Positions 49,020 through 63,760 of a stretch of DNA of 64,000 bases are shown here, in pieces. Origin of the DNA: Burkholderiales bacterium. Lineage in GTDB: Bacteria > Pseudomonadota > Gammaproteobacteria > Burkholderiales > Ga0077523. Positions within the stretch are counted from its first letter, which is position 1; each line of letters starts with the position of its first letter. A model generated the notes under the pieces. The model had not been told where the DNA came from. It worked only from the letters and a program-made list of their open reading frames with translations, and searched no databases. The position numbers were made by a program, and so were the translations under genes. The DNA lies in NCBI GenBank assembly GCA_019745565.1, contig JAIESW010000024.1, positions 64,129-128,128 of the forward strand, given 5' to 3'.

Positions 49020-49958
49020 CTACGCCCGGCGCTCGAGAGCATCCATCACCAGGGCAGGGGTATCGAACCCGGTCTGGTCCAGGATTTCCCGCATGCAGGT
49101 CGGGCTGGTGACGTTGACCTCGGTCAGGCAGTCGCCGATCACGTCCAGGCCGACGATCAGCAGCCCGTGGGCCTTCGCCACCGGTCCCACGCCCTCCGCG
49201 ATCTCCCGGTCGCGCGCCGACAGCGGCTGGGCGACGCCGGTGCCGCCGGCGGCGAGGTTGCCGCGGGTCTCGCCGGCCTTGGGGATGCGCGCCAGCGCGT
49301 AGGGCACAGGCACGCCGTCGATCAGCAGGATGCGCTTGTCGCCCCGGACGATGTCGGGAATGAAGCGCTGCGCCATGGCGGTGCGCCGGCCGTGCACGGT
49401 CAGCGTCTCGATGATCACGCCCACGTTCGGGTCGTCGGCCCGGATGCGGAAGACCGATGCGCCGCCCATGCCGTCCAGCGGCTTCAGGACGATGTCGCCG
49501 TGCTCCGCGAGGAAGGCGCGGATCGCATGCTCCTGCCGCGTCACCAGGGTCGGCGCGGTGAACTGCGGAAACCGGGCGATCGCGAGCTTCTCGTTGAAGT
49601 CGCGCAGGCTGCGCGGGCTGTTGAAGACGCGCGCACCGCGAGCTTCCGCGAGCTCCAGCAGATAGGTGCTGTAGAGGTATTCGGTGTCGAACGGCGGATC
49701 CTTGCGCATCAGCACGGCGCCGAACCGCGCGAGTTCACCCGTGGATTCGCCGACGGTGCGGTACCAGTCGTCCTCGCTGCCGGTGAGCTGCAGTTCGGTC
49801 GCGCGGGCGTGCACCGCGTTGCCGGTCCACACCAGGTCTTCCTGGAACAGTACGAACAGGCGATGCCCGCGCGCGGCAGCGGCGCGCATCATCGCGAACG
49901 ACGAATCCTTGTACGGCTTGATCGACTCGAGCGGATCGAGGACGAACGCGATGTCCAT
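49020..49958 (-). CDS. gshB: Glutathione synthetase
   Basis: ATP-grasp enzyme of 312 residues joining gamma-glutamylcysteine and glycine. Segments are DIAFVLDPLESIKPYKDSS at the start, MRKDPPFDTEYLYSTYLLE, the ATP-grasp loop VLKPLDGMGGASVFRI, and C-terminal GLDVIGDCLTEVNVTSPTC. ATG 49958 matches the family N-terminus. It lies downstream of gshA with a G/C-rich repeat in the 96-bp gap. Confidence 0.95.
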   Translation of the reverse strand: MDIAFVLDPLESIKPYKDSSFAMMRAAAARGHRLFVLFQEDLVWTGNAVHARATELQLTGSEDDWYRTVGESTGELARFGAVLMRKDPPFDTEYLYSTYLLELAEARGARVFNSPRSLRDFNEKLAIARFPQFTAPTLVTRQEHAIRAFLAEHGDIVLKPLDGMGGASVFRIRADDPNVGVIIETLTVHGRRTAMAQRFIPDIVRGDKRILLIDGVPVPYALARIPKAGETRGNLAAGGTGVAQPLSARDREIAEGVGPVAKAHGLLIVGLDVIGDCLTEVNVTSPTCMREILDQTGFDTPALVMDALERRA

Positions 49959-49979
49959 GCCGATGGGGACTGTCAGTGG

Positions 49980-50048
49980 CGCCGGGCCGCCCCAAGCCAC
50001 TGACGCGCCCCCATGGGGGGCAGCGACCGACGGGAGCGTGGGGGCCGT
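49980..50048. repeat. G/C-rich intergenic repeat, family C copy 2
   Basis: CGCCGGGCCGCCCCAAG (49980-49996) is the inverse complement of 33777-33793. It is followed by a GCCCCCATGGGGGGC palindrome (50007-50021 region). It sits between gshA and gshB on their shared transcript. Confidence 0.65.
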
Positions 50049-50054
50049 TTCACT

Positions 50055-51347
50055 TCAGGCCACCGCTTCGAGGGCCGGCTCGGTGCGTTCCAGTTCCAGC
50101 GATGCGGCGAGCAGCGCGAGCCGCGCGACCACGCCGTAGGAGTAGAAGCGGTTGGGCGGGGCATGCGGCGACACGTCGAAGTCGGGTTGCGAACAGTGCG
50201 TGTCGAATGCGAGCGGCACGAAGTGCATGCCCGGCGCGTTCAGGTTTTCGTCCGGACCGCGCTCGGTGTGCACGCGATAGAAACCGCCCACCACGAAGTG
50301 GTCGATCATGTAGACCACGGGTTCGGCCACCGCGTCGTTCACGTTCTCGAAGGTGGGAACGCCTTCCTGCACCATCACGTTCGAGACCTCCAGGCCTTCC
50401 TTCACCACCGCCATCTTGTTGCGCTGCTTGCGGTTCAGGCCCTTCACGTCGTCCGGGCTCTTCACCGACATGACGCCCATGCCGTAGGTGCCGGCATCGG
50501 CCTTCACGATCACGAACGGCTGCTGGGTGATGCCGTACTCGCGGTACTTCACCGCCGTGCGCTTCAGGATGTCGTCGACCCAGCCCGCCAGGCACTCCTC
50601 GCCGGTGCGTTCCTGGAAGTTGATCTCGCCGCAGACGCCGAAATAGGGGTCGATCAGCCAGGGATCGATGCCGATCAGGTCGGCGAACTCCTTCGCCACC
50701 TCGTTGTAGGCAGCGAAATGGTTCGACTTGAGGCGCGTCGACCAGCCCGCGTGCAGCGGCGGAATGATCGGCTGATCGATGCCTTCGAGGACCTTGGGAA
50801 TGCCCGCCGACAGGTCGTTGTTGAGCAGGATGGTGCACGGATCGAAATCCGCCAGTCCCACGCGGCGGCCGGAGCGCACGATCGGCTCCAGCAGCAGCTT
50901 GCGACCGTCGGGCAACGCGAGTTCCGTGGGCGTCGTGATCTCGGGAATGAGCGTGCCGACGCGCACCTTCATGCCGGCCTGGCGCAGGATCGACTGCAGC
51001 GTCGCCACGTTCTGCAGATAGAACGTGTTGCGCGTGTGGTTCTCGGGCACCAATAGGACGCCGCGCGCGTCCGGACAGATCTTCTCCACGGCGACCATGA
51101 TGGCCTGCACGCACAACGGCATGAATTCCGGGGCGAGATTGTTGAAGCCGCCGGGGAAGAGGTTGGTGTCGACCGGCGCCAGCTTGAAGCCGGCGTTGCG
51201 CAGGTCCACGGAAGCGTAGAACGGCGCCGCATGCTCGAGCCATTGACCACGCAGCCAGTGTTCGATGGCGGGCTGGGCGTCGAGGATCTGGCGCTCGAGT
51301 TCGAGCAGCGGTCCGGTGAGGGCGGTGACGAGATTTGGAACGGTCAT
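50055..51347 (-). CDS. gshA: Glutamate-cysteine ligase, proteobacterial (A. ferrooxidans) type
   Basis: The 430-residue enzyme matches the TIGR02049-type gamma-glutamylcysteine ligase rather than E. coli GshA. Segments are VDLRNAGFKLAPVDTNLFPG, LLVPENHTRNTFYLQNV, FVIVKADAGTYGMGVM and a C-terminal NRFYSYGVVARLALLAAS. It makes gamma-glutamylcysteine, the first step of glutathione synthesis. On the minus strand a TATACT element (complement of 51393-51398), about 46 bp upstream of the start, is a likely -10 box. Confidence 0.95.
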   Translation of the reverse strand: MTVPNLVTALTGPLLELERQILDAQPAIEHWLRGQWLEHAAPFYASVDLRNAGFKLAPVDTNLFPGGFNNLAPEFMPLCVQAIMVAVEKICPDARGVLLVPENHTRNTFYLQNVATLQSILRQAGMKVRVGTLIPEITTPTELALPDGRKLLLEPIVRSGRRVGLADFDPCTILLNNDLSAGIPKVLEGIDQPIIPPLHAGWSTRLKSNHFAAYNEVAKEFADLIGIDPWLIDPYFGVCGEINFQERTGEECLAGWVDDILKRTAVKYREYGITQQPFVIVKADAGTYGMGVMSVKSPDDVKGLNRKQRNKMAVVKEGLEVSNVMVQEGVPTFENVNDAVAEPVVYMIDHFVVGGFYRVHTERGPDENLNAPGMHFVPLAFDTHCSQPDFDVSPHAPPNRFYSYGVVARLALLAASLELERTEPALEAVA

Positions 51348-51608: not shown

Positions 51609-51893
51609 ATGGCGGAGTCACTCGCCTCACGCATCGACCGCATGTTCGCACGCGACCGGTTCATGGCGCTGCTGTTCGTCGCCATGCTCTGGCTGTGCAC
51701 GGGCTTCGTCTACTTCGCGGTGGACTCGCTCGTCTCGAACGGCGGCATACGCCTGGCGCTCGCGATCGCGGCGCTGTTTCTCCTCGCGTTCAACACCGCT
51801 TCGATCCTCGCGATGATCCGTCACTACCGCGAGGACAAGGAACACATCTACGGTCTGGACATCCGTCACCTGGACGAGAACCGCGCCAGATAG
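51609..51893 (+). CDS. Small two-TM membrane protein (94 aa)
   Basis: A 94-residue protein of unrecognised family. Two hydrophobic helices (ALLFVAMLWLCTGFVYFAV and IRLALAIAALFLLAFNTASI) are joined by a short loop. Both ends are charged (RIDRMFARDRF in front; HYREDKEHIYGLDIRHLDEN behind). ATG 51609 follows a good GGGAGGAG. It is the first of three tiny membrane proteins before an APC permease. No named function. Confidence 0.75.
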   Translation: MAESLASRIDRMFARDRFMALLFVAMLWLCTGFVYFAVDSLVSNGGIRLALAIAALFLLAFNTASILAMIRHYREDKEHIYGLDIRHLDENRAR

Positions 51894-51972
51894 CGCGGCA
51901 GTCGGGTGATGGTGGCGTGCGTCGCCGCGGCGGTGCGCGTCGATCGGTTGTCGGTAGCCACGGGAGAACGAC

Positions 51973-52377
51973 ATGGCGCAGCACTACGAGCCCCCGAAGC
52001 AGGCGGGCGTGGGTCAGTTCATCGACAGCATCGTGCTGATGGTGCTGGTGTTCATCTGCTTGCTGGCGCCGGTGTATCTCAAGGCGGACCACAGCGCGGC
52101 ACCGCCTCCGGAGGTGCAGGCGGAAGCCGCCAAGGCTGCCGCGACCTGGCAATCCCTCGGTCAGACGCCGGCGCAGGCGCAGCAGTGGGAGAAGTTGGGC
52201 TACACGCCCGAGACCGCGCAGCCCATCGTCGAGAACCGGTTCGACTACACCGTCGATCCGACCGCGCTGATCGTCACGATCGCCGTGATCGTGGGCTACT
52301 TCGTCTTCGTGTTCCGCATCTCCGATCGCGAGTATCGCGAAGTGGTGCGCGAGCGGTTCGGCAACGGCGGCAACTGA
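51973..52377 (+). CDS. Small two-TM membrane protein (134 aa)
   Basis: A 134-residue protein with an N-terminal helix (FIDSIVLMVLVFICLLAPVY) and a C-terminal helix (ALIVTIAVIVGYFVFVFRIS). A roughly 55-residue, Ala- and Gln-rich soluble loop lies between them (about 45-95, TWQSLGQTPAQAQQWEKLGY). The second helix is followed by a charged tail REYREVVRERFGNG. Unrecognised. It starts 79 bp after the previous gene and ends 12 bp before the 46-residue protein gene, so these are very likely co-transcribed. Confidence 0.75.
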   Translation: MAQHYEPPKQAGVGQFIDSIVLMVLVFICLLAPVYLKADHSAAPPPEVQAEAAKAAATWQSLGQTPAQAQQWEKLGYTPETAQPIVENRFDYTVDPTALIVTIAVIVGYFVFVFRISDREYREVVRERFGNGGN

Positions 52378-52389
52378 GGGAAACGCTCC

Positions 52390-52530
52390 ATGGACCTGTG
52401 GGATCTGCTGAGCTATGCCGCATGGGCCGTCTCGGTCCTGCTCTTCCTCTGGATGCTGATCGACGCCTGGGGCGTGGGGCGGAAGTTCCAGGAGGATTTC
52501 CTGCTGTCCTCGCGCGAAGGCGAGGAATGA
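52390..52530 (+). CDS. Very small single-TM protein (46 aa)
   Basis: A 46-residue gene starting at ATG 52390 behind GAGGGAAA. It has one hydrophobic helix (LLSYAAWAVSVLLFLWMLID) and an acidic/basic tail ending SSREGEE. It fits snugly between the 134-residue protein gene (12 bp before) and the permease (24 bp after), which supports it as real. I infer a possible small subunit or regulator of the permease, by analogy with small proteins of other transporters. Confidence 0.75.
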   Translation: MDLWDLLSYAAWAVSVLLFLWMLIDAWGVGRKFQEDFLLSSREGEE

Positions 52531-52554
52531 CGTGGCGGTCTCGGGGAGGCATCG

Positions 52555-53964
52555 ATGAGTGAGGCAACGACGGCCGCCGCAGGCGGCAGTTCCGGTCAAC
52601 CGACGCGCATCGCCCTGCTCAAGGTGCTGGGCCCGGTGCACGTGTGGGCGCTGGGCGTGGGCATCGTGCTGGTGGGTGAGTTCATGGGCTGGAACTTCTC
52701 CGTGGGCAAGGGCGGAGCCTACGGTTCGCTGATCGCGTGCTGGGTGGTGGGTCTGCTCTACACCTGTGTGGCGATGATCGATTCGGAAGTGACGTCCACG
52801 GTGGCGGCCGCGGGCGGGCAGTACACGCAGGCGAAGCACATCGTGGGGCCGCTCATGGCCTTCAACGTGGGGCTGTATCTGGTGATGGCCTACACCATGC
52901 TCGAAGCCGGTGACGCGCTGGTGGTGGGCGACCTGATGAAAGCCGTCGCGGGCGAGTTCGGTCACGCCGACCTCGATCCGCGTCCGTTCGTGGTGCTGTC
53001 GATCGCGATCCTCGCGTGGCTCAACTACCGCGGCGTGTTCATGACGCTCACGGTGAATTTCGTCATCACCGCGGCGGCGTTCCTCGCGATCGTCATCCTG
53101 TTCTTCGGCGTCGCGCCGTGGGAGCCGGGCAAGGTGCTGCTGCACAAGGAACTGTTGATCGACCTGCCCTATGGATGGATCGGCGTCATCGCCGCCATGC
53201 AGTTCGCCATGTGGTACTACCTCGGCATCGAGGGCACCTGCCAGGCGGCGGAAGAGGTGCGTTCCGCCGGCCGCTCGATTCCGCTGGGAACCATGAGCGG
53301 CATGATCACGCTGCTGATCGCCGCATCGCTCACGTGGTACGTCGCGGCCGGGCTGATGCCGTGGGAGTATCTGGGCCAGGCCATAACACCCTTGTACGAC
53401 GCCGCCAAACTGACCGGCAACGGCACGCTGCAGGTGATCCTGTTCGTGGGCACCATCTTCTCGGCCATCGCGTCGGCCAACGGGTGCATCAACGACGCGT
53501 CGCGCGCCTGGTTCTCCATGGGGCGCGACCGTTATCTGCCCACGTGGTTCGGCGCGGTGCATCCGCGCTACCGCACGCCCTACCGTGCGATCCTGTTCCT
53601 GATCCCGATCGCGGTGGTGTTCGCGTTCCAGGCGCCGCTCGACCAGGTGATCAGCTTCTCGATCCTGTCCGGCCTGCTGGGGTACACCTTCATGTCGCTC
53701 AACATGATGAAGTTCCGCAAGCAGTGGCCGCTCGGCAGCATCAAGCGGGGCTACGTGCACCCGTTCCATCCGCTGCCGGCCATCGTGCTGCTGGTGCTCT
53801 GCGTCGCCACGTACTTCGCGACGTTCCTGGGCTACGGCGCGACGCTCGTGGCGGTCATGGCGTTCTACATCCTCGCGTCCGCCTGGTTCGTGTTCCATCG
53901 CTACAAGTTCGTGCGGCGCGGCGACCAGTTCACCATGCCCTGGCCGCGGCCCAAGGGCTACTGA
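52555..53964 (+). CDS. APC superfamily permease, ethanolamine permease-like
   Basis: Amino acid/polyamine/organocation transporter of 469 residues with about twelve hydrophobic helices. The first helix shows VHVWALGVGIVLVGEFMGWN, close to ethanolamine permease-type APC proteins. Later segments are MQFAMWYYLGIEGTCQAAEE and IFSAIASANGCINDASRAWF. The cytoplasmic substrate site should favour a small organic cation or amine. Its placement upstream of an NMG pathway suggests import of methylamine, N-methylated amino compounds or a related amine; this is inference. Confidence 0.85.
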   Translation: MSEATTAAAGGSSGQPTRIALLKVLGPVHVWALGVGIVLVGEFMGWNFSVGKGGAYGSLIACWVVGLLYTCVAMIDSEVTSTVAAAGGQYTQAKHIVGPLMAFNVGLYLVMAYTMLEAGDALVVGDLMKAVAGEFGHADLDPRPFVVLSIAILAWLNYRGVFMTLTVNFVITAAAFLAIVILFFGVAPWEPGKVLLHKELLIDLPYGWIGVIAAMQFAMWYYLGIEGTCQAAEEVRSAGRSIPLGTMSGMITLLIAASLTWYVAAGLMPWEYLGQAITPLYDAAKLTGNGTLQVILFVGTIFSAIASANGCINDASRAWFSMGRDRYLPTWFGAVHPRYRTPYRAILFLIPIAVVFAFQAPLDQVISFSILSGLLGYTFMSLNMMKFRKQWPLGSIKRGYVHPFHPLPAIVLLVLCVATYFATFLGYGATLVAVMAFYILASAWFVFHRYKFVRRGDQFTMPWPRPKGY

Positions 53965-53990
53965 CGCTGTCCGCGCCAAGGAGATAGCCC

Positions 53991-54422
53991 ATGATCCGGA
54001 AGATCCTCTGCGCCACCGACGGTTCGATCGCGTCGGCGAAGGCGGTGGACGTCGCTGTCGATCTGGCTTCGCAGCTGGGGGCTGCGCTTGCGTTCGTGAC
54101 GGTGGAGCGAGTGACGGCCGAGACGGCCGCCAATTCCGCATTCTGGGATTCGCAGGTGCTGGATGCAGCGGCGGCCCAGACCCACCGCGATCTGTCCGCC
54201 GCCCAGGCGAAGGCGCGCGCCGCCGGATTGACGCAGGTGCAATGCGTGACGACCCAGGGCGGCAACGTGGCTGCGGCGCTCATCGACTATGCGGAGAAAC
54301 ACGGCTTCGACCATATCGTGACCGGTTCGCTGGGGCGCACCGGTCTCGCCCGTCTCATGCTGGGTTCGGTTGCAGCGGACGTGGTGGCCAAGGCGCACTG
54401 CCCGGTCACGGTCGTGCGGTAG
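53991..54422 (+). CDS. Universal stress protein, UspA family
   Basis: Single-domain USP of 143 residues with MIRKILCATDGSIASAKAVD at the N-terminus. The ATP-binding motif GSLGRTGLARLMLGSVAADV (G-x2-G-x9-G-S) is intact, so it is probably of the nucleotide-binding class. USPs are often linked to transporters and modulate them. Strong SD AAGGAG; 26 bp after the permease stop and 4 bp before the next gene, so it belongs to the same run. Confidence 0.9.
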   Translation: MIRKILCATDGSIASAKAVDVAVDLASQLGAALAFVTVERVTAETAANSAFWDSQVLDAAAAQTHRDLSAAQAKARAAGLTQVQCVTTQGGNVAAALIDYAEKHGFDHIVTGSLGRTGLARLMLGSVAADVVAKAHCPVTVVR

Positions 54423-54426
54423 GCAC

Positions 54427-55106
54427 ATGCAGTGGGAGGCAGTCGTACTGGGCTGCGCGCTCGGTGGTGCGCTGGCCTGGCAAGCACGGCGCGACCACGC
54501 GCGCGCGCGCGGGCTTGGCGCACACGCCTGTTCGACGATTGCGGCACGTCGCTCGCGCGCTCCGCGATCCGCATCGATCGCACCGGCTGGCCGGCGCTGC
54601 ACGGTGAGCGGGATGGGATGCAAGCCACGTGCAGTCTCGTCTTCGACGATCTTGGCTATCGCAAGTTGCCGGTCCTCTGGCTGTCGGTGACTCTCTCGAC
54701 GACCCTCGGGATCGGCGCGTCGTTCGACGCGCTGGCGCGGGAGCAGGGCACCGAGTTCTTCTCGCCGGCCTCGGAACTGCCGGTACGTCTGTCGCTGCCG
54801 GATTCCTGGCCCCGGCACATCAGCCTGCGCGCCGATCGCGAAGCGTCGCTGCCGCCACCGCTGGCGGATCTGGGCGCGCGGTTCTTCCAATCCCCCCAGG
54901 CCAAGGAGATCGTGCTCTCGCCGCGTGGCGTGCGACTGGTCGGCTTCGTGGCGGAAGGGCGCCGTGCGGAGTACCTGGTGCTGCGCCGGCCGCGCTTCGA
55001 TCTGGTGCGGATCGACCCGGCCCTGGTGGAGGCGCGCCTCGCGGAAGCCCGCGAGTTCGTGCTGGCGCTGAACGAGACTGCGGATGGCCAGCGCCGCGCC
55101 GCCTGA
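54427..55106 (+). pseudogene. Hypothetical membrane-anchored protein gene with apparent frameshift at a CG run
   Basis: The likely N-terminus, starting at ATG 54427, is MQWEAVVLGCALGGALAWQA followed by RRDHARAR, with a hydrophobic helix. The rest of the protein continues in another frame (AWRTRLFDDCGTSLARSA onward) to a stop at 55106. The frame switches within a run of seven CG dinucleotides (54498-54511), where one extra CG, or one lost base, explains the break. The downstream part has a conserved-looking LGYRKLPVLWLSVTLSTT and a C-terminal EAREFVLALNET. The family is unknown to me. It may be a sequencing error, a true mutation or a slippage site. Alternative: a 224-residue protein from GTG 54432 with an odd Arg-rich start. 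Confidence 0.55.
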
Positions 55107-55386
55107 GTCGCCCCGCCCGCCGCCGCACCCCTTGCTGGTGATGGCCGTCGCGGCGGTGCTCCCGGGCATGGGGCAGGTGATGAACGGCAACACCACCCGG
55201 GCGCTCACGTTCATCTTCTTCATGTTCATGCTGGGGATGGTGAGCTGGCACCTCACCACGTCCGCCCACTCCTTCATCGGCCGCCATGCCGGCGGTGTCC
55301 TCGTCTACGCGATCTCGGTGATGGATGCCTATCGCCTGGCGCGCTGGCGCTTCGAAGTCCATCGGTCGCGCCTCGCGCATCCGTGA
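55084..55386 (+). CDS. Small TM2-like membrane protein
   Basis: A 100-residue protein with a Pro-rich start (PPESPRPPPHP) and hydrophobic helices. The motif AAVLPGMGQVMNGNTTRALT resembles the Pro-Gly-x-Gly-Gln-x-x-Asn-Gly turn of TM2-domain and related small membrane proteins. A second helical pair includes FMFMLGMVSW and a C-terminal VYAISVMDAYRLARWR. Its start overlaps the preceding gene by 23 bp. A 145-bp gap with a possible TTGACG/CATCAT promoter (55428-55456) then leads to mgdA. Confidence 0.75.
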   Translation: MASAAPPESPRPPPHPLLVMAVAAVLPGMGQVMNGNTTRALTFIFFMFMLGMVSWHLTTSAHSFIGRHAGGVLVYAISVMDAYRLARWRFEVHRSRLAHP

Positions 55387-55531: not shown

Positions 55532-56773
55532 ATGCCGTACCAGCTGCTGCGCTTCGCCTTCGCTTCGAAGCATCCGGAACCGCGGATGTTCCGGGCGCCC
55601 GAGCGCCTGAAGGATACATACGACGCCGTGATCATCGGTGCCGGCGGGCATGGACTGGCGTCGGCCTACTACCTCGCGCGCGACCACGGGATGACCAACG
55701 TGGCGGTGCTGGAGCGCGGCTATATCGGCGGCGGTAACACCGGCCGCAACACCACCATCATCCGGTCGAACTACCTCACGCCCGAGGGCGTGGCGTTCTA
55801 CGACCAGTCGGTGCGGCTCTGGCAGGATCTGTCGCAGGACTTCGATCTCAACCTGTTCTACGCGACCCGTGGCCACTTCACGCTCGCGCACACCGACTCC
55901 GCCGTGCGCACCATGCGCTGGCGCGCCGAGGTCAACCAGCACTTCGGCGTGAACAGTGAACTGGTGGGGCCCGAGGAAGTGCGCAAGGCGGCGCCGCAGA
56001 TCGACATCACGTGCGGCGGTCACGCGCCGATTCTCGGGGCGCTGTACCACGCGCCCGGCGCTATCGCTCGGCACGACGCCGTGGCCTGGGGTTACGGCCG
56101 CGGTGCCGATCAGCGCGGGGTGGAGATCCACCAGCAGACCGAAGTGCTCGGCATCGAGGTGCAGGGCGGCAAGGTGACCGGCGTGCGCACGACCAGGGGC
56201 AACATCTCGACGCCGCGCGTGCTTTCGGCGGTGGCGGGGTTCACGCCGCGGGTCACGAACATGGTGGGGCTGCGTACGCCGATCTACATTCATCCGCTGC
56301 AAGCCATGGTGACCGAGCCGATGAAGCCGTGGCTCGATCCGATCCTGGTCTCGGGCAGCCTGCACGTCTACGTGAGTCAGTCGGCGCGCGGCGAACTGGT
56401 CATGGGCGCATCGCTCGATCCGTACGAACTGCACGCCACGCGCTCCACACTGGATTTCGTCGAAGGTCTGGCGGCGCACATGCTCGACATGTTCCCGTTC
56501 CTCTCGAATGCGCGCGTGAATCGCCAATGGGCGGGCATGGCCGACATGACGCCCGACTTCGCGCCCATCATGGGCACCACACCGGTCGAGGGGTTCTACC
56601 TCGACGCCGGCTGGGGCACCTGGGGCTTCAAGGCGACGCCCGTATGCGGCAAGACCATGTCTTGGACCGTGGCCAACGGCCGCGATCACGAGCTGATCAA
56701 AGGCTTCAACCTCTCGCGGTTCGAGCGCTACGAACTCACCGGCGAGAAGGGCGCGGCGAGCGTGGGCCACTAG
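55532..56773 (+). CDS. mgdA: N-methylglutamate dehydrogenase subunit A (sarcosine oxidase beta-like)
   Basis: Flavoprotein of 413 residues of the SoxB family. It has the FAD motif VIIGAGGHGLASAYYLA and the SoxB-specific GRNTTIIRSNYLTPEG. His181 in GAIARHDAVAW is at the position that carries covalent FMN in heterotetrameric sarcosine oxidases. It is followed by SoxD-, SoxA- and SoxG-like genes, then gmaS and mgsABC. The context argues for oxidation of N-methylglutamate rather than sarcosine. It oxidises the N-methyl group, passing electrons through FAD and FMN. The start has no clear SD. Confidence 0.85.
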   Translation: MPYQLLRFAFASKHPEPRMFRAPERLKDTYDAVIIGAGGHGLASAYYLARDHGMTNVAVLERGYIGGGNTGRNTTIIRSNYLTPEGVAFYDQSVRLWQDLSQDFDLNLFYATRGHFTLAHTDSAVRTMRWRAEVNQHFGVNSELVGPEEVRKAAPQIDITCGGHAPILGALYHAPGAIARHDAVAWGYGRGADQRGVEIHQQTEVLGIEVQGGKVTGVRTTRGNISTPRVLSAVAGFTPRVTNMVGLRTPIYIHPLQAMVTEPMKPWLDPILVSGSLHVYVSQSARGELVMGASLDPYELHATRSTLDFVEGLAAHMLDMFPFLSNARVNRQWAGMADMTPDFAPIMGTTPVEGFYLDAGWGTWGFKATPVCGKTMSWTVANGRDHELIKGFNLSRFERYELTGEKGAASVGH

Positions 56774-56929: not shown

Positions 56930-57178
56930 ATGAAGATCCTGACCTGCCCCGTCAACGGCCCGCGCCCGGTCTCCGAGTTCGCCTACGGCGGCGAAGTACG
57001 TCCCATGCCCGACGGTGCCACCTGCTCCGACCGCGAATGGGCCGACTACGTGTTCAACCGCAGCGGCGTGCCCGGCGTGAAGATCGAATGGTGGTACCAC
57101 ATCGCGAGCGGCACCTGGTTCCACGCCGAACGCGACACCGTCACGGATCGCGTGATCCGCACCTGGCTGCCGGGATGA
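56930..57178 (+). CDS. mgdB: N-methylglutamate dehydrogenase subunit B (sarcosine oxidase delta-like)
   Basis: SoxD-family protein of 82 residues with TCPVNGPRPVSEFAYGGEV at the N-terminus and EWWYHIASGTWFHAERDT near the C-terminus. In characterised heterotetrameric sarcosine oxidases the delta subunit binds zinc through Cys6, Cys9, a His and a further Cys. Here only Cys6 and the His remain, and the other two positions are Asn and absent. It is translationally coupled to mgdC (ATGA). Confidence 0.85.
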   Translation: MKILTCPVNGPRPVSEFAYGGEVRPMPDGATCSDREWADYVFNRSGVPGVKIEWWYHIASGTWFHAERDTVTDRVIRTWLPG

Positions 57179-60081
57179 GTTCGCGCCTGCCCCCCGTCAC
57201 CGGCGAATGGATCGATCGTTCGCGCGGCCTCGATTTCACCTTCGACGGCAAGGCCTATCGCGGCTGGGTCGGCGACACACCGGCGAGCGCCCTGTGGGCC
57301 GCCGGCGTCCACGTCCTCGGGCGCAGTTTCAAGTACCACCGGCCGCGCGGCGTGCTGTCCATGGCCAACCACGACGTCAACACCATGATGCAGACCGGTG
57401 CACGCCTCAATCTGCGTGCCGATGTCGAGCCGCTCGAGGCGGCAATGGCGTTGACCAGCGTCAACACCGCGGGGGGCGCGTCGGGCGATCGCCTGCGCTT
57501 TCTCAATGCGCTCGGCGGGTTCCTGCCGGTGGGGTTCTACTACAAGGCGTTCCATCGGCCGAAGGCGTTGTTCCCTTTCTGGGAGCGCGTGTTCCGCCGC
57601 ATGACCGGTCTCGGCACGCTGGACTTCAACGCGCCGCACATCCGCACGCCGAAGCGCTACGACTTCTGCGACGTGCTGGTGGTGGGTGCCGGTCCTTCGG
57701 GGTTGCATGCAGCGCTTGCCGCCGGGCGTGCCGGCGCAAAGGTGGTGCTGGTGGACGAGAACGCGCGCATCGGCGGATCGCTCGGCTACCAGCGTGGCGG
57801 TTCCGTCGAAGGGCTCGAGATGCTGCGCGACCTCGAACGCGATCTCGCGGAGCTGCCGAACGTATCGGTGCGCGCCGCCACCCTCGCGGCCGGCTACTAC
57901 GCCGATCACTGGATCCCGCTGGTGGACGCGAAGCGCATGACCAAGCTCCGCGCGCGCGCGGTGATCTGCGCCGGCGGCGTGTTCGAGCAGCCGGCCGTGT
58001 TCCGCAACAACGATGTCCCCGGCGTCATGCTCGCGTCCGCCGCGCAACGCCTGCTGTATCGCTATGCGGTCAAGCCCATGGACAAGGCGGTCGTGCTGAC
58101 GGCCAACGCGGACGGCTATCGTGCCGCGCTCGATCTGATGGCCCATGGCGTCGCCATCGCGGCGGTGGCGGATCTGCGGGCCGAAGGCGAACCCAGTGCC
58201 CTCACCATGCGCGTGAAGCAGGTGGGTATCCCGGTCCTCAAGGGCCATTGCGTGCTGGAGGCCGAGGCGGTCGATGACCGCCTGGTGGCGGCGACGCTCT
58301 GTCCCGTGAGCGCGGAGGGCAGGCCCGACACCGCCTCCCCGCAGAAATTCGCGTGCGACGGCCTCCTGATGAGCGTGGGCTGGGCACCGGCGGCGGCACT
58401 TCTGTACCAGGCGGGCGCGAGCATGCGCTACGACGCCGGCGTCCACCAGTTCGTCCCCGAGCGCTTGCCCGAGGGCGTGTTCGCCTGCGGACGCGTGAAC
58501 GGCGTGTACACGCTCGATTCGAAATGCGAGGACGGCGAACGCGCCGGCACCGAAGCCGCCCGACTGCTCGGCTTCGACGTGCCGGCGCGGAATTTCTCGG
58601 TGGCCGCGGAACGCGTGGCGCCGTCGCATCCCTGGCCGATCGTGGATCACCCGGCCGGCAAGAATTTCGTCGACTTCGACGAGGACCTGCATCTGCGCGA
58701 CTTCCACAACGCCGCGCAGGAAGGCTTCGACAACATCGAGCTGCTGAAGCGCTACACCACCGTGGGCATGGGGCCGTCGCAGGGCAAGCACTCCAACATG
58801 AACGCGATCCGCATCCTCGCGCGTATCCGCGGCAAGTCGCCCGGCGAAGTGGGTACCACGACCGCGCGGCCGTTCTTCCATCCGGTCCCCATGTCGCACT
58901 TGGCCGGCCGCGGTTTCAACGTGCATCGCGAAACGCCGCTGCATGGACGCCACGACGGTCTGGGTGCGGTGTGGATGCAGGCGGGCGTGTGGTTGCGTCC
59001 GGAGTACTACGGGCAACCCGGCAAACGCAAGGCCGACATCGTGCGCGAGGAAGCACGTGCCGTCCGCGAGAGTGTCGGCATCATCGACGTGGGCACGCTC
59101 GGCAAGATGGAGCTCTACGGGCCCGATGCGGGAGCATTCCTGGAGCGTGTCTACACCGCGAAGTTCGCGGGCATGAAGCCGGGCACCACGCGCTACGCAG
59201 TGATGCTGGACGAATCCGGTGTCGTGATCGACGACGGCGTGGTGGCACGCCTCGCCGATCAGCACTTCTACTTCACGACCACGACGACGGGCTCGACGAC
59301 GGTCTACCGGGAACTGCAGCGGTGGAACGCCCAATGGAACCTCGAAGTGGGCATCGTCAATGCGACCGGCGCGTTCGCCGCGATGAATCTGGCAGGTCCG
59401 AAGGCACGCGCGGTGCTGCGCAAGCTGACCACGCTCGACCTGTCCAACGAAGCCTTCCCCTACCTCGCGTTGCGCGAGGCCGACGTGGCCGGCGTCCCTG
59501 CACGGTTGATGCGCGTGGGCTTCGTGGGTGAACTCGGCTACGAGATCCACGTGCCGGCGGATCGCGCCGGGCATCTGTGGGATGCCCTGATGGATGCCGG
59601 CGGCGAGTACGCGATCCGTCCGTTCGGCGTGGAGGCGCAGCGCCTGCTGCGCCTGGAGAAGGGCCACATCATCATCGGGCAGGACACCGACGGGCTGACC
59701 CAGCCCGACGAAGCCGGCCTCGAATGGGCGGTCAAGATGGACAAGGCGTTCTTCGTGGGCCAGCGCAGCGTCGATATCGTACGCAAGCGCGGGCCGAGGC
59801 AGAAGCTGGTGGGGTTCGAACTGGATGCGATCGGCGCGTCGACCGCGCCGCGCGAATGCCATCTGGTCGTGCGCAACGGCGCGATCGCCGGTCGCGTGAC
59901 CAGCATCGCGTGGAGCGACACGCTGGGCAAGCACGTGGGACTCGCGTTCGTGGCCCCCGACATGACCGAGGTGGGTTCGCCGTTCTTCATCCGTGCGGAT
60001 GGCGGCACCATGGTGCAGGCGCGCGTGGTGCCCACGCCGTTCTACGATGCCGAAGGTCTGCGGCAGAAGGTGGTGGACTGA
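57175..60081 (+). CDS. mgdC: N-methylglutamate dehydrogenase subunit C (sarcosine oxidase alpha-like)
   Basis: SoxA-family protein of 968 residues. The N-terminal region resembles ferredoxin-like/SoxA N-domains (FDGKAYRGWVGDTPASALWA). Then comes an NAD-binding Rossmann domain (VVGAGPSGLHAALAAGRAG, about residue 168 on), and a C-terminal GcvT-like tetrahydrofolate domain (about 590-965, with VRESVGIIDVGTLGKMELYG and GFVGELGYEIHVPADRAG). The folate domain can capture the released one-carbon unit as methylene-tetrahydrofolate. Starts within the mgdB stop and ends within the mgdD start. Confidence 0.9.
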   Translation: MSSRLPPVTGEWIDRSRGLDFTFDGKAYRGWVGDTPASALWAAGVHVLGRSFKYHRPRGVLSMANHDVNTMMQTGARLNLRADVEPLEAAMALTSVNTAGGASGDRLRFLNALGGFLPVGFYYKAFHRPKALFPFWERVFRRMTGLGTLDFNAPHIRTPKRYDFCDVLVVGAGPSGLHAALAAGRAGAKVVLVDENARIGGSLGYQRGGSVEGLEMLRDLERDLAELPNVSVRAATLAAGYYADHWIPLVDAKRMTKLRARAVICAGGVFEQPAVFRNNDVPGVMLASAAQRLLYRYAVKPMDKAVVLTANADGYRAALDLMAHGVAIAAVADLRAEGEPSALTMRVKQVGIPVLKGHCVLEAEAVDDRLVAATLCPVSAEGRPDTASPQKFACDGLLMSVGWAPAAALLYQAGASMRYDAGVHQFVPERLPEGVFACGRVNGVYTLDSKCEDGERAGTEAARLLGFDVPARNFSVAAERVAPSHPWPIVDHPAGKNFVDFDEDLHLRDFHNAAQEGFDNIELLKRYTTVGMGPSQGKHSNMNAIRILARIRGKSPGEVGTTTARPFFHPVPMSHLAGRGFNVHRETPLHGRHDGLGAVWMQAGVWLRPEYYGQPGKRKADIVREEARAVRESVGIIDVGTLGKMELYGPDAGAFLERVYTAKFAGMKPGTTRYAVMLDESGVVIDDGVVARLADQHFYFTTTTTGSTTVYRELQRWNAQWNLEVGIVNATGAFAAMNLAGPKARAVLRKLTTLDLSNEAFPYLALREADVAGVPARLMRVGFVGELGYEIHVPADRAGHLWDALMDAGGEYAIRPFGVEAQRLLRLEKGHIIIGQDTDGLTQPDEAGLEWAVKMDKAFFVGQRSVDIVRKRGPRQKLVGFELDAIGASTAPRECHLVVRNGAIAGRVTSIAWSDTLGKHVGLAFVAPDMTEVGSPFFIRADGGTMVQARVVPTPFYDAEGLRQKVVD

Positions 60082-60783: not shown

Positions 60784-62124
60784 ATGACCATGACACCGGC
60801 GCAGGCGAAGAAGCTCTTCAAGGACGAGAACATCCAGTACATCCTGGCGCAGTTCGTGGACATTCACGGAGCCGCCAAGGCCAAGGCCGTGCCGGTGGAG
60901 CACCTCGAGATGGTGCTGACCGACGGCGCCGGCTTCGCGGGTTTCGCGCTGTGGGGGTTCGGCATGGGGCCGCAGGGCCCCGACTACATGGCGGTGGGCG
61001 ATCTCGACACGCTCCAGCCGATTCCCTGGATGCCCGGCTTCGCGCGCATGGCCACGTGGGGCCACGTGAAGGGCAAGCCCTATCCCTACGATTCGCGACT
61101 GGCGCTCAAGAACGCGACGGACCGACTGAAGGCCAAGGGCCTCACGCTCTACACCGGGATCGAACCGGAGTTCATGCTGCTCAAGCGCCGGCCGGACGGC
61201 AGTGTCGGACCTTGTGACGACACCGATTCGCTCGAGAAGCCCTGCTACGACTACAAGGGGCTCGCGCGCAGCGCGGAGTTCCTGACCCGCATCACCGGCG
61301 CGTGCCGCAAGGTCGGGATCGACGTGTACCAGATCGATCACGAGGACGCGAACGGCCAGTTCGAGGTGAACTACACCTACGCCGACGCGATGACGACGGC
61401 CGACCGGCACATCTTCGTCAAGATGGCAGCGAGCGAGATCGCGAACCAGCTCGGCCTGATCGCCACTTTCATGCCGAAGCCGTTCTCGAACCGCACCGGT
61501 TCGGGGGCGCACTTCCACCTGTCGATAGGTGACGGCAAGACGAAGAACCTGTTCCACGACGACAAGGACAAGCGCGGCCTCGGCCTGTCGAAGATGGGCT
61601 ACCACTTCATGGGCGGGCTGCTGCATCACGCGCGTGGTCTCACGGCCATCTGCGCGCCGACGGTGAACTCGTACAAGCGTCTGGTGGTGGGGCGCGCACT
61701 GTCGGGTGCCACGTGGGCCCCGGCGTACATCACCTATGGCGACAACAACCGTACGTGCATGGTCCGCATCCCCTACGGACGTCTCGAGATGCGGCTGCCC
61801 GATGCCGCGGTCAATCCTTATCTGGCGAGCGCCGCGATCATCGCCGCCGGCATGGACGGCGTGGAGAAGAAGATGGATCCGGGCGAACCCAACAACACCA
61901 ATCTGTACGAGTGGAGCGACGCCCAGCTCAAGAAGGCAGGCATCGGCGTGCTGCCGCAGAACCTCAACGAATCGCTCGACGCGCTCGAAGCCGACAAGGT
62001 GCTGTGCGAAGGGCTCGGCAAGGAGCTCGCGGCCGAGTTCATCCGCCTGAAGCGGATGGAATGGATCGAGTACCAGCGCCATGTGTCGGGCTGGGAAGTG
62101 GAACGCTATCTCGAGTTCTTCTAG
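60784..62124 (+). CDS. gmaS: Gamma-glutamylmethylamide synthetase (glutamine synthetase-like)
   Basis: Glutamine-synthetase-family ligase of 446 residues (GlnT/type III-like). Metal- and substrate-site stretches are [48 protein letters not shown] and the ATP-site [20 protein letters not shown]. In the NMG pathway GmaS condenses methylamine with glutamate using ATP. Length agrees with known GmaS (about 444). Standard GlnA is longer and would not sit between mgd and mgs genes. Some GlnT proteins have other amine substrates, so methylamine is inferred from context. Confidence 0.85.
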
Positions 62125-62156
62125 ACGGAACTCGCAGTCAGAAAAGGATATCGATC

Positions 62157-63053
62157 ATGTGCGGAATCGTGGGATTGCTGGTGAAGAACCCGGCCATGCG
62201 CAGCCAGCTGGGTGAACTGATGGTGCCGATCCTCGAGGAGATGGCCTCGCGCGGACCGGAGTCGGCGGGGTTGGCCGTGTTCACCGACCGCCTGCCGGAG
62301 ACGGATCGCAAGTACAGCCTGCATGCGCCGGCGTGGGACTACGACTGGGCGCCGTTCGAGGCGGACTTCATCAAGCGCTTCGGCACCGAAGCGCAACTGG
62401 CCGTCAAGGGCAACCATGCGGTGTTGACGTGCGACGAACCCGCGGACGCCGTGAAGGCCTGGACGCATCAGCACTATCCGGGGCTGCACGTGCTGTCGGC
62501 CGGCCGCCGCATCGACATCTACAAGGACACCGGCCATCCGGCCGACATCGCGAAGCGCTACGACTTCCCGAAGCTGACCGGTACCCATGTGGTCGGTCAC
62601 ACGCGCATGGCGACCGAATCGGCGGTCACGCCGGATCGCGCCCATCCGTTCACCGCGGGTGAGGATTTCTGCCTGGTGCACAACGGCACCATCTCGAATC
62701 CGTTCATGATCCGGCGCAAGCTCGAGCACCGCGGCATCCGCTTCGAGACCGACAACGACACCGAAGCCGCGACGCGCTTCCTCGAATGGCGCACGCGCGA
62801 AGGTGACTCGTTGGAGCAGGCGCTGCAGAAAGGCTTCGAGGAGCTCGACGGCTTCTACACTTTCCTGATCGGGACCGAGAACAAGCTGGCGCTGGTCCGC
62901 GACGCGTTCGCGTGCAAACCGGCCATCGTGGCGGAGACCGACGACTACGTCGCGATCAGCTCCGAGTTCCGCGGTCTCGCCCACTTGCCCGGGGTGAACA
63001 ACGCGAAGCTGTTCGAGCCGATGCCCGAGGAACTCTACGTATGGACAGTCTGA
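62157..63053 (+). CDS. mgsA: N-methylglutamate synthase subunit A (class II glutamine amidotransferase)
   Basis: Class II amidotransferase domain of 298 residues with the N-terminal nucleophile Cys2 exposed after Met removal (MCGIVGLLV). The glutamine-binding segments are GHTRMATESAVTPDRAHPF and VHNGTISNPFMIRRKLEHRG. It corresponds to the GltB amidotransferase domain as a separate protein. In NMG synthase it would hydrolyse gamma-glutamylmethylamide and pass methylamine to the FMN subunit. The end overlaps the mgsB start. Confidence 0.9.
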   Translation: MCGIVGLLVKNPAMRSQLGELMVPILEEMASRGPESAGLAVFTDRLPETDRKYSLHAPAWDYDWAPFEADFIKRFGTEAQLAVKGNHAVLTCDEPADAVKAWTHQHYPGLHVLSAGRRIDIYKDTGHPADIAKRYDFPKLTGTHVVGHTRMATESAVTPDRAHPFTAGEDFCLVHNGTISNPFMIRRKLEHRGIRFETDNDTEAATRFLEWRTREGDSLEQALQKGFEELDGFYTFLIGTENKLALVRDAFACKPAIVAETDDYVAISSEFRGLAHLPGVNNAKLFEPMPEELYVWTV

Positions 63054-63760
63054 CCGTCGAGAAGCGGACCACCATGGACAAGACCTTCGACCTCGCGAAG
63101 TCCTCGGTGCGGGAACTCAACCAGTTCCTGCACCAGGATCTCGCGACCAGCGGCGTGAAGCACATCGACGTGCTCAACCCGAACGGCAGCCACAGCATCG
63201 CGGTGGGCGTGAACCATCCGGTGGCCATCGACATCCGCGGCCAGGGCGGCTACTACGTGGGCGGCATGAACAAGTTCGCCGACATCACGGTGCATGGCAA
63301 CGTGGGCTGGGGTGTCGCGGAGAACATGATGTCCGGCTCGGTGCGCGTGAAGGGGTTCGCGTCCGAATCCGCCGGTGCGACCGGTCACGGCGGCACGCTC
63401 ATCATCGAGGGGGACGCGAGCCTGCGCTGCGGCATCTCCATGAAGGGCATCGACATCGTCGTCGGCGGCCGGGTCGGCAACTACTCCGCGTTCATGGCGC
63501 AGGCAGGGCGGCTGGTGATCTGCGGCGATGCCGGCGATGCGCTCGGCGATTCGCTCTACGAAGCCGTGATCTACGTGCGCGGCAAGATCAAGTCTCTGGG
63601 CGCGGATGCGCAGCAGGAGCCCATGACGGCCGCGGATCACGCTGCGGTGGCCGAGTTGCTGAAGCGCGCCGGCTTTCCCTATGACCCCACCGAGTTCAAG
63701 CGCGTTGCGTCCGCGCGTTCCCTCTACCATTGGAACGCCGACGCGAACCAGGAGTATTGA
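63041..63760 (+). CDS. mgsB: N-methylglutamate synthase subunit B (GltB C-terminal GXGXG-domain protein)
   Basis: The 239-residue protein forms the right-handed beta-helix found at the C-terminus of glutamate synthase large subunits. Repeated turns include GQGGYYVGGMNKFADITVHG, SAGATGHGGTLIIEG and GRVGNYSAFMAQAG. It is a structural subunit of the three-protein NMG synthase. I use ATG 63041, with GAGG upstream inside the end of mgsA; ATG 63074 is an in-frame alternative that removes 11 residues. mgsC follows 11 bp downstream. Confidence 0.85.
   Translation: MDSLTVEKRTTMDKTFDLAKSSVRELNQFLHQDLATSGVKHIDVLNPNGSHSIAVGVNHPVAIDIRGQGGYYVGGMNKFADITVHGNVGWGVAENMMSGSVRVKGFASESAGATGHGGTLIIEGDASLRCGISMKGIDIVVGGRVGNYSAFMAQAGRLVICGDAGDALGDSLYEAVIYVRGKIKSLGADAQQEPMTAADHAAVAELLKRAGFPYDPTEFKRVASARSLYHWNADANQEY

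Follow-up and report, generated by a model that had tools for sequence, protein, structure and literature searches.

In a 64,000-nucleotide stretch of a Burkholderiales bacterium genome (GCA_019745565.1, contig JAIESW010000024.1, positions 64,129 to 128,128; hereafter the window), three small membrane proteins (SP1, SP2 and SP3), an APC-superfamily permease, a universal stress protein (USP) and two further membrane proteins (P6 and P7) are encoded ahead of the N-methylglutamate (NMG) genes of methylamine use. We propose, with a probability of roughly 0.55, that this locus encodes a heteromeric methylammonium importer supplying the NMG pathway, with SP1-3 as obligatory subunits. The proposal builds on a fixed gene set and order, an obligate pairing of the small proteins with one permease clade, purifying selection on the genes involved, and a recurrent association with NMG genes.

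A conserved gene set across three proteobacterial groups

A GTDB scan with an SP2 alignment returned 225 relatives, from which 80 loci were retained, mostly in named methylotrophs. A locus counted as assessable if 3.5 kb or more of sequence followed downstream (n = 69), and SP1 was waived where the contig begins less than 300 bp from SP2. The arrangement SP1-SP2-SP3-APC-(USP)-P6-P7 was complete, in the same order and on the same strand, at 68/69 assessable loci, with median gaps of 10, 9 and 10 bp between SP1, SP2, SP3 and the permease gene, and P6 and P7 usually overlapping by 4 bp. This module spans alpha-, beta- and gammaproteobacteria, mostly methylotrophs, and its carriers include Methylophaga, Methylotenera, Methyloversatilis, Hyphomicrobium, Methylorubrum, Aminobacter and rhizobia. 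The first-pass annotation of the window had named conserved synteny in other betaproteobacteria with mgd or gmaS as the support to look for, and such synteny was found far beyond that group. The same annotation rightly joined the small proteins to the permease, and these belong to the core; USP is an optional member, present at 22/69 assessable loci. P6 and P7, which it treated as mere followers, do lie downstream of the permease as described, and both belong to the conserved core.

The module is also found on plasmids: a tblastn search with SP2 matched 22 plasmid records, including some from Aminobacter, Sinorhizobium, Paracoccus and Paraburkholderia, and the annotated neighbourhoods show the order small-small-small-permease-hypothetical-hypothetical. 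Three metagenome-assembled genome (MAG) records titled Klebsiella pneumoniae or Bordetella parapertussis (L034, L057 and L087) carry the module and look like mislabelled methylotroph bins; L034 and L057 hold NMG clusters besides.

Obligate pairing with one permease clade

As SP2 had served as the seed of the GTDB scan, additional searches started from the permease and from SP1. Among 349 Burkholderiales genomes, SP2 was detected in 15 and a permease orthologue (E ≤ 1e-80) in the identical 15, with the permease located 162-306 bp downstream of SP2 in 15/15 carriers. Across 299 genomes sampled from the whole phylum, permease matches split into 11 scoring at least 800 bits and a remainder scoring at most 170 bits, with none between. 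SP1-3 were encoded directly upstream of all high-scoring permeases (11/11), and none of the three was found at the examined loci of the lower group (0/19). The SP1-seeded search of these 299 genomes recovered the same 11 genomes and one chance-level match (E 0.004). Because the SP1-, SP2- and APC-seeded sets coincide, neither partner occurs alone: in the sampled genomes, the small proteins and this permease clade are each never found without the other. Small-protein homologues scattered away from APC permeases, which the first-pass annotation had named as contrary evidence, were seen with none of the three seeds.

The small open reading frames (ORFs) are real genes, since SP1-3 evolve under purifying selection (dN/dS 0.16-0.28, relative to two relatives) and are conserved in different proteobacterial classes. 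Within the module, conservation is strongest in the permease (dN/dS 0.03-0.09), with orthologues 68-97% identical across classes and the transporter core fully kept.

Association with methylamine genes

Among the Burkholderiales genomes, gmaS (called at ≥58% identity) was present in 14/15 module-bearing and 30/334 other genomes (Fisher p = 4.5e-13, to be taken as indicative since related genomes are not independent); the single module-bearing genome without gmaS (G181) is an 82%-complete draft. NMG genes were in view at 38 of the 51 loci with at least 8 kb on each side, and mgsC (68-85% identity) was detected in 25 of the 28 genomes or records whose NMG genes are out of view or distant. Within the GTDB set, the module stands directly after mgsC at 33 loci, before mgdA at 9 and between divergent mgdA and mgsA at 4, while the remaining loci include modules adjoining gmaS or mgsA in other ways. 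As this amounts to at least five arrangements beside mgsC, mgdA, mgsA or gmaS, the linkage to NMG genes does not reflect one inherited layout. The module begins 519 bp after mgsC in M. universalis EHg5, lies ~0.6 kb from mgsA on pAMI6 of Paracoccus aminophilus and ~12 kb from mgdD on plasmid paAMD1 of Aminobacter niigataensis MD1, and stands on Sinorhizobium pSymB between oxidoreductase/aminomethyltransferase genes and mgs/gmaS. On paAMD1, the module genes carry the locus tags O1Y97_RS25720-25745 and span 304.0-307.4 kb.

Features of the permease

The permease belongs to AA_permease_2 (PF13520; 110.4 bits for a cut-off of 27, residues 33-425) and scores below the cut-off of the ethanolamine permease equivalog TIGR00908 (183.8 vs. 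381.75 bits); no match to PF00909 (Amt/Mep/Rh) was obtained in the Pfam scan. It forms a clade separate from the ethanolamine-type permeases, in which E42, in the first transmembrane helix (TM1), E117, E226 and D314 are invariant. Compared to the ethanolamine permease family (TIGR00908; APC, PF13520), it is similar over the whole length and retains the acidic TM1 residue of the G(E/D)xxGW(N/S) motif, but is always accompanied by SP1-3, is set apart by the score gap described above (≥800 vs. ≤170 bits), and carries the additional E117 and D314, at which positions relatives have proline and glycine. These two added carboxylates would, as expected, fit a small amine cation as substrate. The closest solved structures include SLC7 carriers. 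In Methyloceanibacter marginalis R-67177 (L054), the permease is divided over two ORFs, representing a frameshift or a sequencing error.

Features of the small proteins, P6, P7 and USP

No Pfam or NCBIfam family was matched above cut-off by SP1-3 or P6, including when alignments of SP1, SP2 and P6 were scanned, and DUF485 and DUF4212 were absent among the Pfam matches of SP1, SP2 and SP3 at E ≤ 1, 0.1 and 1, respectively. An assignment of SP1-3 as divergent DUF485, DUF4212 or similar subunits is thus unsupported in these scans. Topology was assessed from hydropathy and charge in up to 80 homologues. SP1, which carries the conserved motif RDR...W...FN(T/S)AS(I)xAM(I)RHYxEDKxxIYGxDIxxLD, has two helices with positive flanks at both ends and a loop poor in positive residues, and is predicted to be a hairpin with cytoplasmic N and C termini. 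Between the transmembrane helices of SP2 is a loop of ~60 residues, probably periplasmic, with WxxLGQ...QWxxLG and RFDY motifs, and a SDREYREVxxERFG motif marks its C-terminus. The AlphaFold2 model of SP2 includes two long helices and three short loop helices; it is a weak model (pLDDT 77, pTM 0.35), and a fold search with it gave no match. SP3 has a single helix, with no positive charge before it and some after, and a strongly conserved C-terminal LxSSREG tail.

At its N-terminus, P6 has one helix, after which 4.5 of 15 residues are positive; a transmembrane anchor with a soluble domain on the cytoplasmic side is predicted from this pattern. Like SP2, it has no sequence relative among solved structures. 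Its structural model is confident (pLDDT 93, pTM 0.88), and below E 0.001 the PDB yielded a single match, TtfA (Foldseek E 7.5e-4, probability 1.00), the mycobacterial MmpL3 cofactor, which likewise combines an N-terminal transmembrane anchor with a cytoplasmic domain. TtfA forms complexes with MmpL3 and is needed for MmpL3 transport (PMC6593404). P7 carries a LPGxGQVxN motif and scores below the DUF5683 cut-off (22.6 vs. 26.7 bits), with no match to a TM2 profile, while USP is a member of PF00582 (106.7 bits, cut-off 24).

The frameshift that the first-pass annotation reported in P6 is confirmed for this assembly, in which the frame opened by the ATG (MQWEAVVLGCALGGALAWQARRD..., from 54427) shifts inside a (CG)7 run at 54498-54511. 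Since the frame is intact and the CG run missing in the nearest relatives, this is a recent local pseudogene-type lesion or an assembly error rather than a family trait, and phase variation was rejected because relatives lack the run. With P6 broken at its anchor, the system may be impaired in the source genome, unless the base calls are wrong.

Organization of the locus in the window

All module genes and the downstream mgdABC, gmaS and mgsAB lie on the forward strand, with the NMG genes directly downstream of the module (Table 1). Re-checking of the ORF coordinates reproduced exactly the sizes (94, 134 and 46 aa) and gaps (79, 12 and 24 bp) first reported for SP1, SP2, SP3 and the permease, and the position of the mgd genes after the TM2-like protein, with P7 ending at 55386 and mgdA starting at 55532. 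Promoter and terminator consensus scans of the locus yielded chance-level matches only; no terminator above chance is predicted to separate the small genes from the permease, where a transcript end had been put forward as evidence against a joint system.

Table 1 Module genes and downstream NMG genes in the window.
Feature	Position	Strand	Description
SP1	51609-51893	+	94 aa; two-helix membrane hairpin (predicted)
SP2	51973-52377	+	134 aa; two transmembrane helices
SP3	52390-52530	+	46 aa; one transmembrane helix
APC-superfamily permease	52555-53964	+	469 aa; AA_permease_2, ethanolamine-permease-like
USP	53991-54422	+	optional member
P6	54427-55106	+	membrane-anchored; frame-broken in window
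P7	55084-55386	+	~100 aa; polytopic, TM2/DUF5683-like
mgdA	55532-56773	+	NMG dehydrogenase beta-type subunit (soxB-like)
mgdB	56930-57178	+	delta-type subunit
mgdC	57178-60081	+	alpha-type subunit; start position approximate
gmaS	60784-62124	+	type III glutamine-synthetase-like; gamma-glutamylmethylamide synthetase
mgsA	62154-62984	+	start approximate
mgsB	63074-63730	+	start approximate

Two other neighbours were observed. Upstream, genes for a glutathione synthase and a ferrooxidans-type glutamate-cysteine ligase (49020-51347, reverse strand) adjoin the module divergently, and the same pair is found near the module, on either side, in other betaproteobacteria (L016, L022, L058 and L085); this recurring neighbourhood suggests a link between glutathione synthesis and the one-carbon cluster. 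On the other side, an Amt gene (G000:C95:132527-133708), oriented oppositely to gmaS, is located ~4.4 kb past the window end and 6.3 kb beyond gmaS.

Comparison with known systems

APC transporters usually act without small subunits. Small partners are known for SSS symporters, such as ActP with DUF485 and others with DUF4212, and for the NSS importer MetP with MetS, each of which combines a LeuT-fold carrier with one tiny membrane protein encoded alongside. In contrast, the module carrier is an APC permease accompanied by three different small proteins as well as P6 and P7, none of which matches those Pfam families. Within the APC superfamily, the module permease can be likened to the light chain of SLC7-SLC3 heteromers, which needs a partner. 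Its partners are tiny, unrelated bacterial proteins instead of a glycosidase-like SLC3 heavy chain, and no SLC3-type heavy chain was matched by any module protein in the Pfam scan. Finally, the inner-membrane methylammonium entry proposed here is the role of Amt/Mep/Rh proteins tied to NMG genes, Amt being named as the methylamine transporter of the gmaS-mgsABC-amt operons of Pseudomonas sp. C5pp (PMC8292978). The module permease is unrelated to Amt/Mep/Rh in fold and gene, and in some genomes Amt stands beside the module instead of being replaced by it.

Proposed function of the module

Drawing on gene linkage, we infer a physical complex, an inward direction of transport, its substrate, and roles for P6, P7 and USP. 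The APC permease would be the carrier of the methylammonium cation, with SP1-3 packed against it as obligatory small membrane subunits: SP1 as a hairpin, SP2 contributing a small helical periplasmic cap, and SP3 as a single helix. These subunits would probably stabilise the carrier and could tune affinity, coupling or selectivity for a tiny cation against excess ammonium. P6 and P7 may serve on the cytoplasmic side as assembly or regulatory partners, and USP, where present, as a nucleotide-responsive regulator. Imported methylamine would then be passed to GmaS and MgsABC/MgdABCD. Just short of an even chance, in our estimate, is the broader proposal that the module represents a new architectural class, i.e., an APC carrier that functions solely when joined in a hetero-oligomer by three tiny subunits, along with two more membrane partners (one TtfA-like), and that serves catabolic methylammonium uptake in methylotrophs from three proteobacterial groups.

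Several observations weigh against a dedicated methylammonium importer of this composition. Most gmaS-bearing Burkholderiales genomes (30/44) lack the module, so methylamine use in itself does not depend on it; the module may instead be characteristic of one mode of that use, perhaps the one in which methylamine supplies carbon and energy. In three MAGs with the module, no close mgsC is present, and the whole six-gene module is carried by a 62-kb Pseudohalocynthiibacter plasmid (L131, NZ_CP049043.1) that has no mgsC, indicating that the module can travel apart from NMG genes. One locus (L060), the sole exception to the conserved order, lacks P6 and P7 and has mgsA after the permease. The likeness of P6 to TtfA is moderate (TM-score 0.35/0.43, with 0.43 by target; 10% identity), comes without sequence similarity and concerns a protein serving a different transporter superfamily; the TtfA-like fold is a moderate lead on the role of P6 and not proof. 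Last, Amt can itself carry methylammonium. Its gene lies no more than 25 kb from gmaS in 7/14 genomes that have the module and in 14/30 that lack it, counts by which the idea of the module and Amt as mutual replacements was rejected.

The alternative that best survives, although we consider it unlikely, is a real multi-part transporter with another main substrate (dimethylamine, ethanolamine or a glutamate derivative), or else an exchanger bringing methylammonium in and ammonium out, which would shed the excess nitrogen of one-carbon amine growth. The ethanolamine-type nature of the nearest permeases, the occasional location of the module away from NMG genes, and the pSymB copy, flanked by oxidoreductase/aminomethyltransferase genes as well as mgs/gmaS, are all consistent with this possibility. 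However, the commonest neighbours are mgs, gmaS and mgd, whose entry substrate is methylamine, and for ethanolamine the TIGR00908 score excludes formal membership of the family. It is more doubtful still that the small genes are mere operon neighbours, encoding conserved proteins of the envelope or of assembly that share a transcript with a permease able to work unaided. Most APC carriers do work alone, and gene linkage is what the complex is deduced from, but the pairing with one permease clade is absolute and missing from all other permeases tested, the order is unchanged across classes even though the surroundings are rearranged, and distance matrices of module genes agree among themselves (r 0.68-0.85) better than with most NMG genes. 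Given the conserved order and the seed-independent pairing, this explanation is the least economical. Most improbable is a permease acting as a sensor (transceptor) or being itself sensed, with SP1-3, P6, P7 and USP reporting extracellular methylamine and bulk uptake proceeding via Amt: the Amt genes near gmaS and the regulatory appearance of USP and of an anchored cytoplasmic-domain protein would suit such a role, but none of the six proteins has a signalling output domain, and the permease, its transporter core intact, is better conserved than any other member.

Methylammonium import accordingly stays our preferred reading. For the initial interpretation, in which the locus encodes a multi-part system for amine uptake and regulation connected to methylamine use, the data support the linkage; the function it assigns constitutes a well-founded hypothesis.

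Implications for methylamine use

The module had been called undescribed, which holds for Pfam, NCBIfam and the searchable open-access literature. In Methyloversatilis universalis FAM5 growing on methylamine, NMG genes and "co-clustered conserved proteins" are reported as induced 6-10-fold, along with amino-acid permeases, and the main text of this transcriptome paper neither describes a multi-part permease nor names the module genes (PMC5023235). For pAMI6 of Paracoccus aminophilus, the mgs-gmaS and mgd operons have been described, in an account of these operons that does not mention the module (PMC4543880). The methylamine genes of paAMD1 are reported to be more abundant on methylated amines in Aminobacter niigataensis MD1, again with no module gene named in the main text (PMC9699525). 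No paper was found that names the module, or a permease dedicated to the uptake of methylamine for catabolism, which is weak evidence as the search covered open-access literature only.

In this searchable literature, no gene has been assigned to the entry of methylamine for carbon and energy use by the NMG pathway, for which Amt is the usual suggestion. Our analysis also points to a possible role for four or more conserved families (SP1-3 and P6) which are now nameless and annotated as "hypothetical protein" in the examined records, and several module carriers are culturable and genetically tractable. If the proposal is correct, a dedicated multi-part carrier would fill the methylamine entry gap across three proteobacterial groups, APC carriers would be seen to be able to need several small subunits, and the module would provide a marker for catabolic, and not only nitrogen, use of methylamine.

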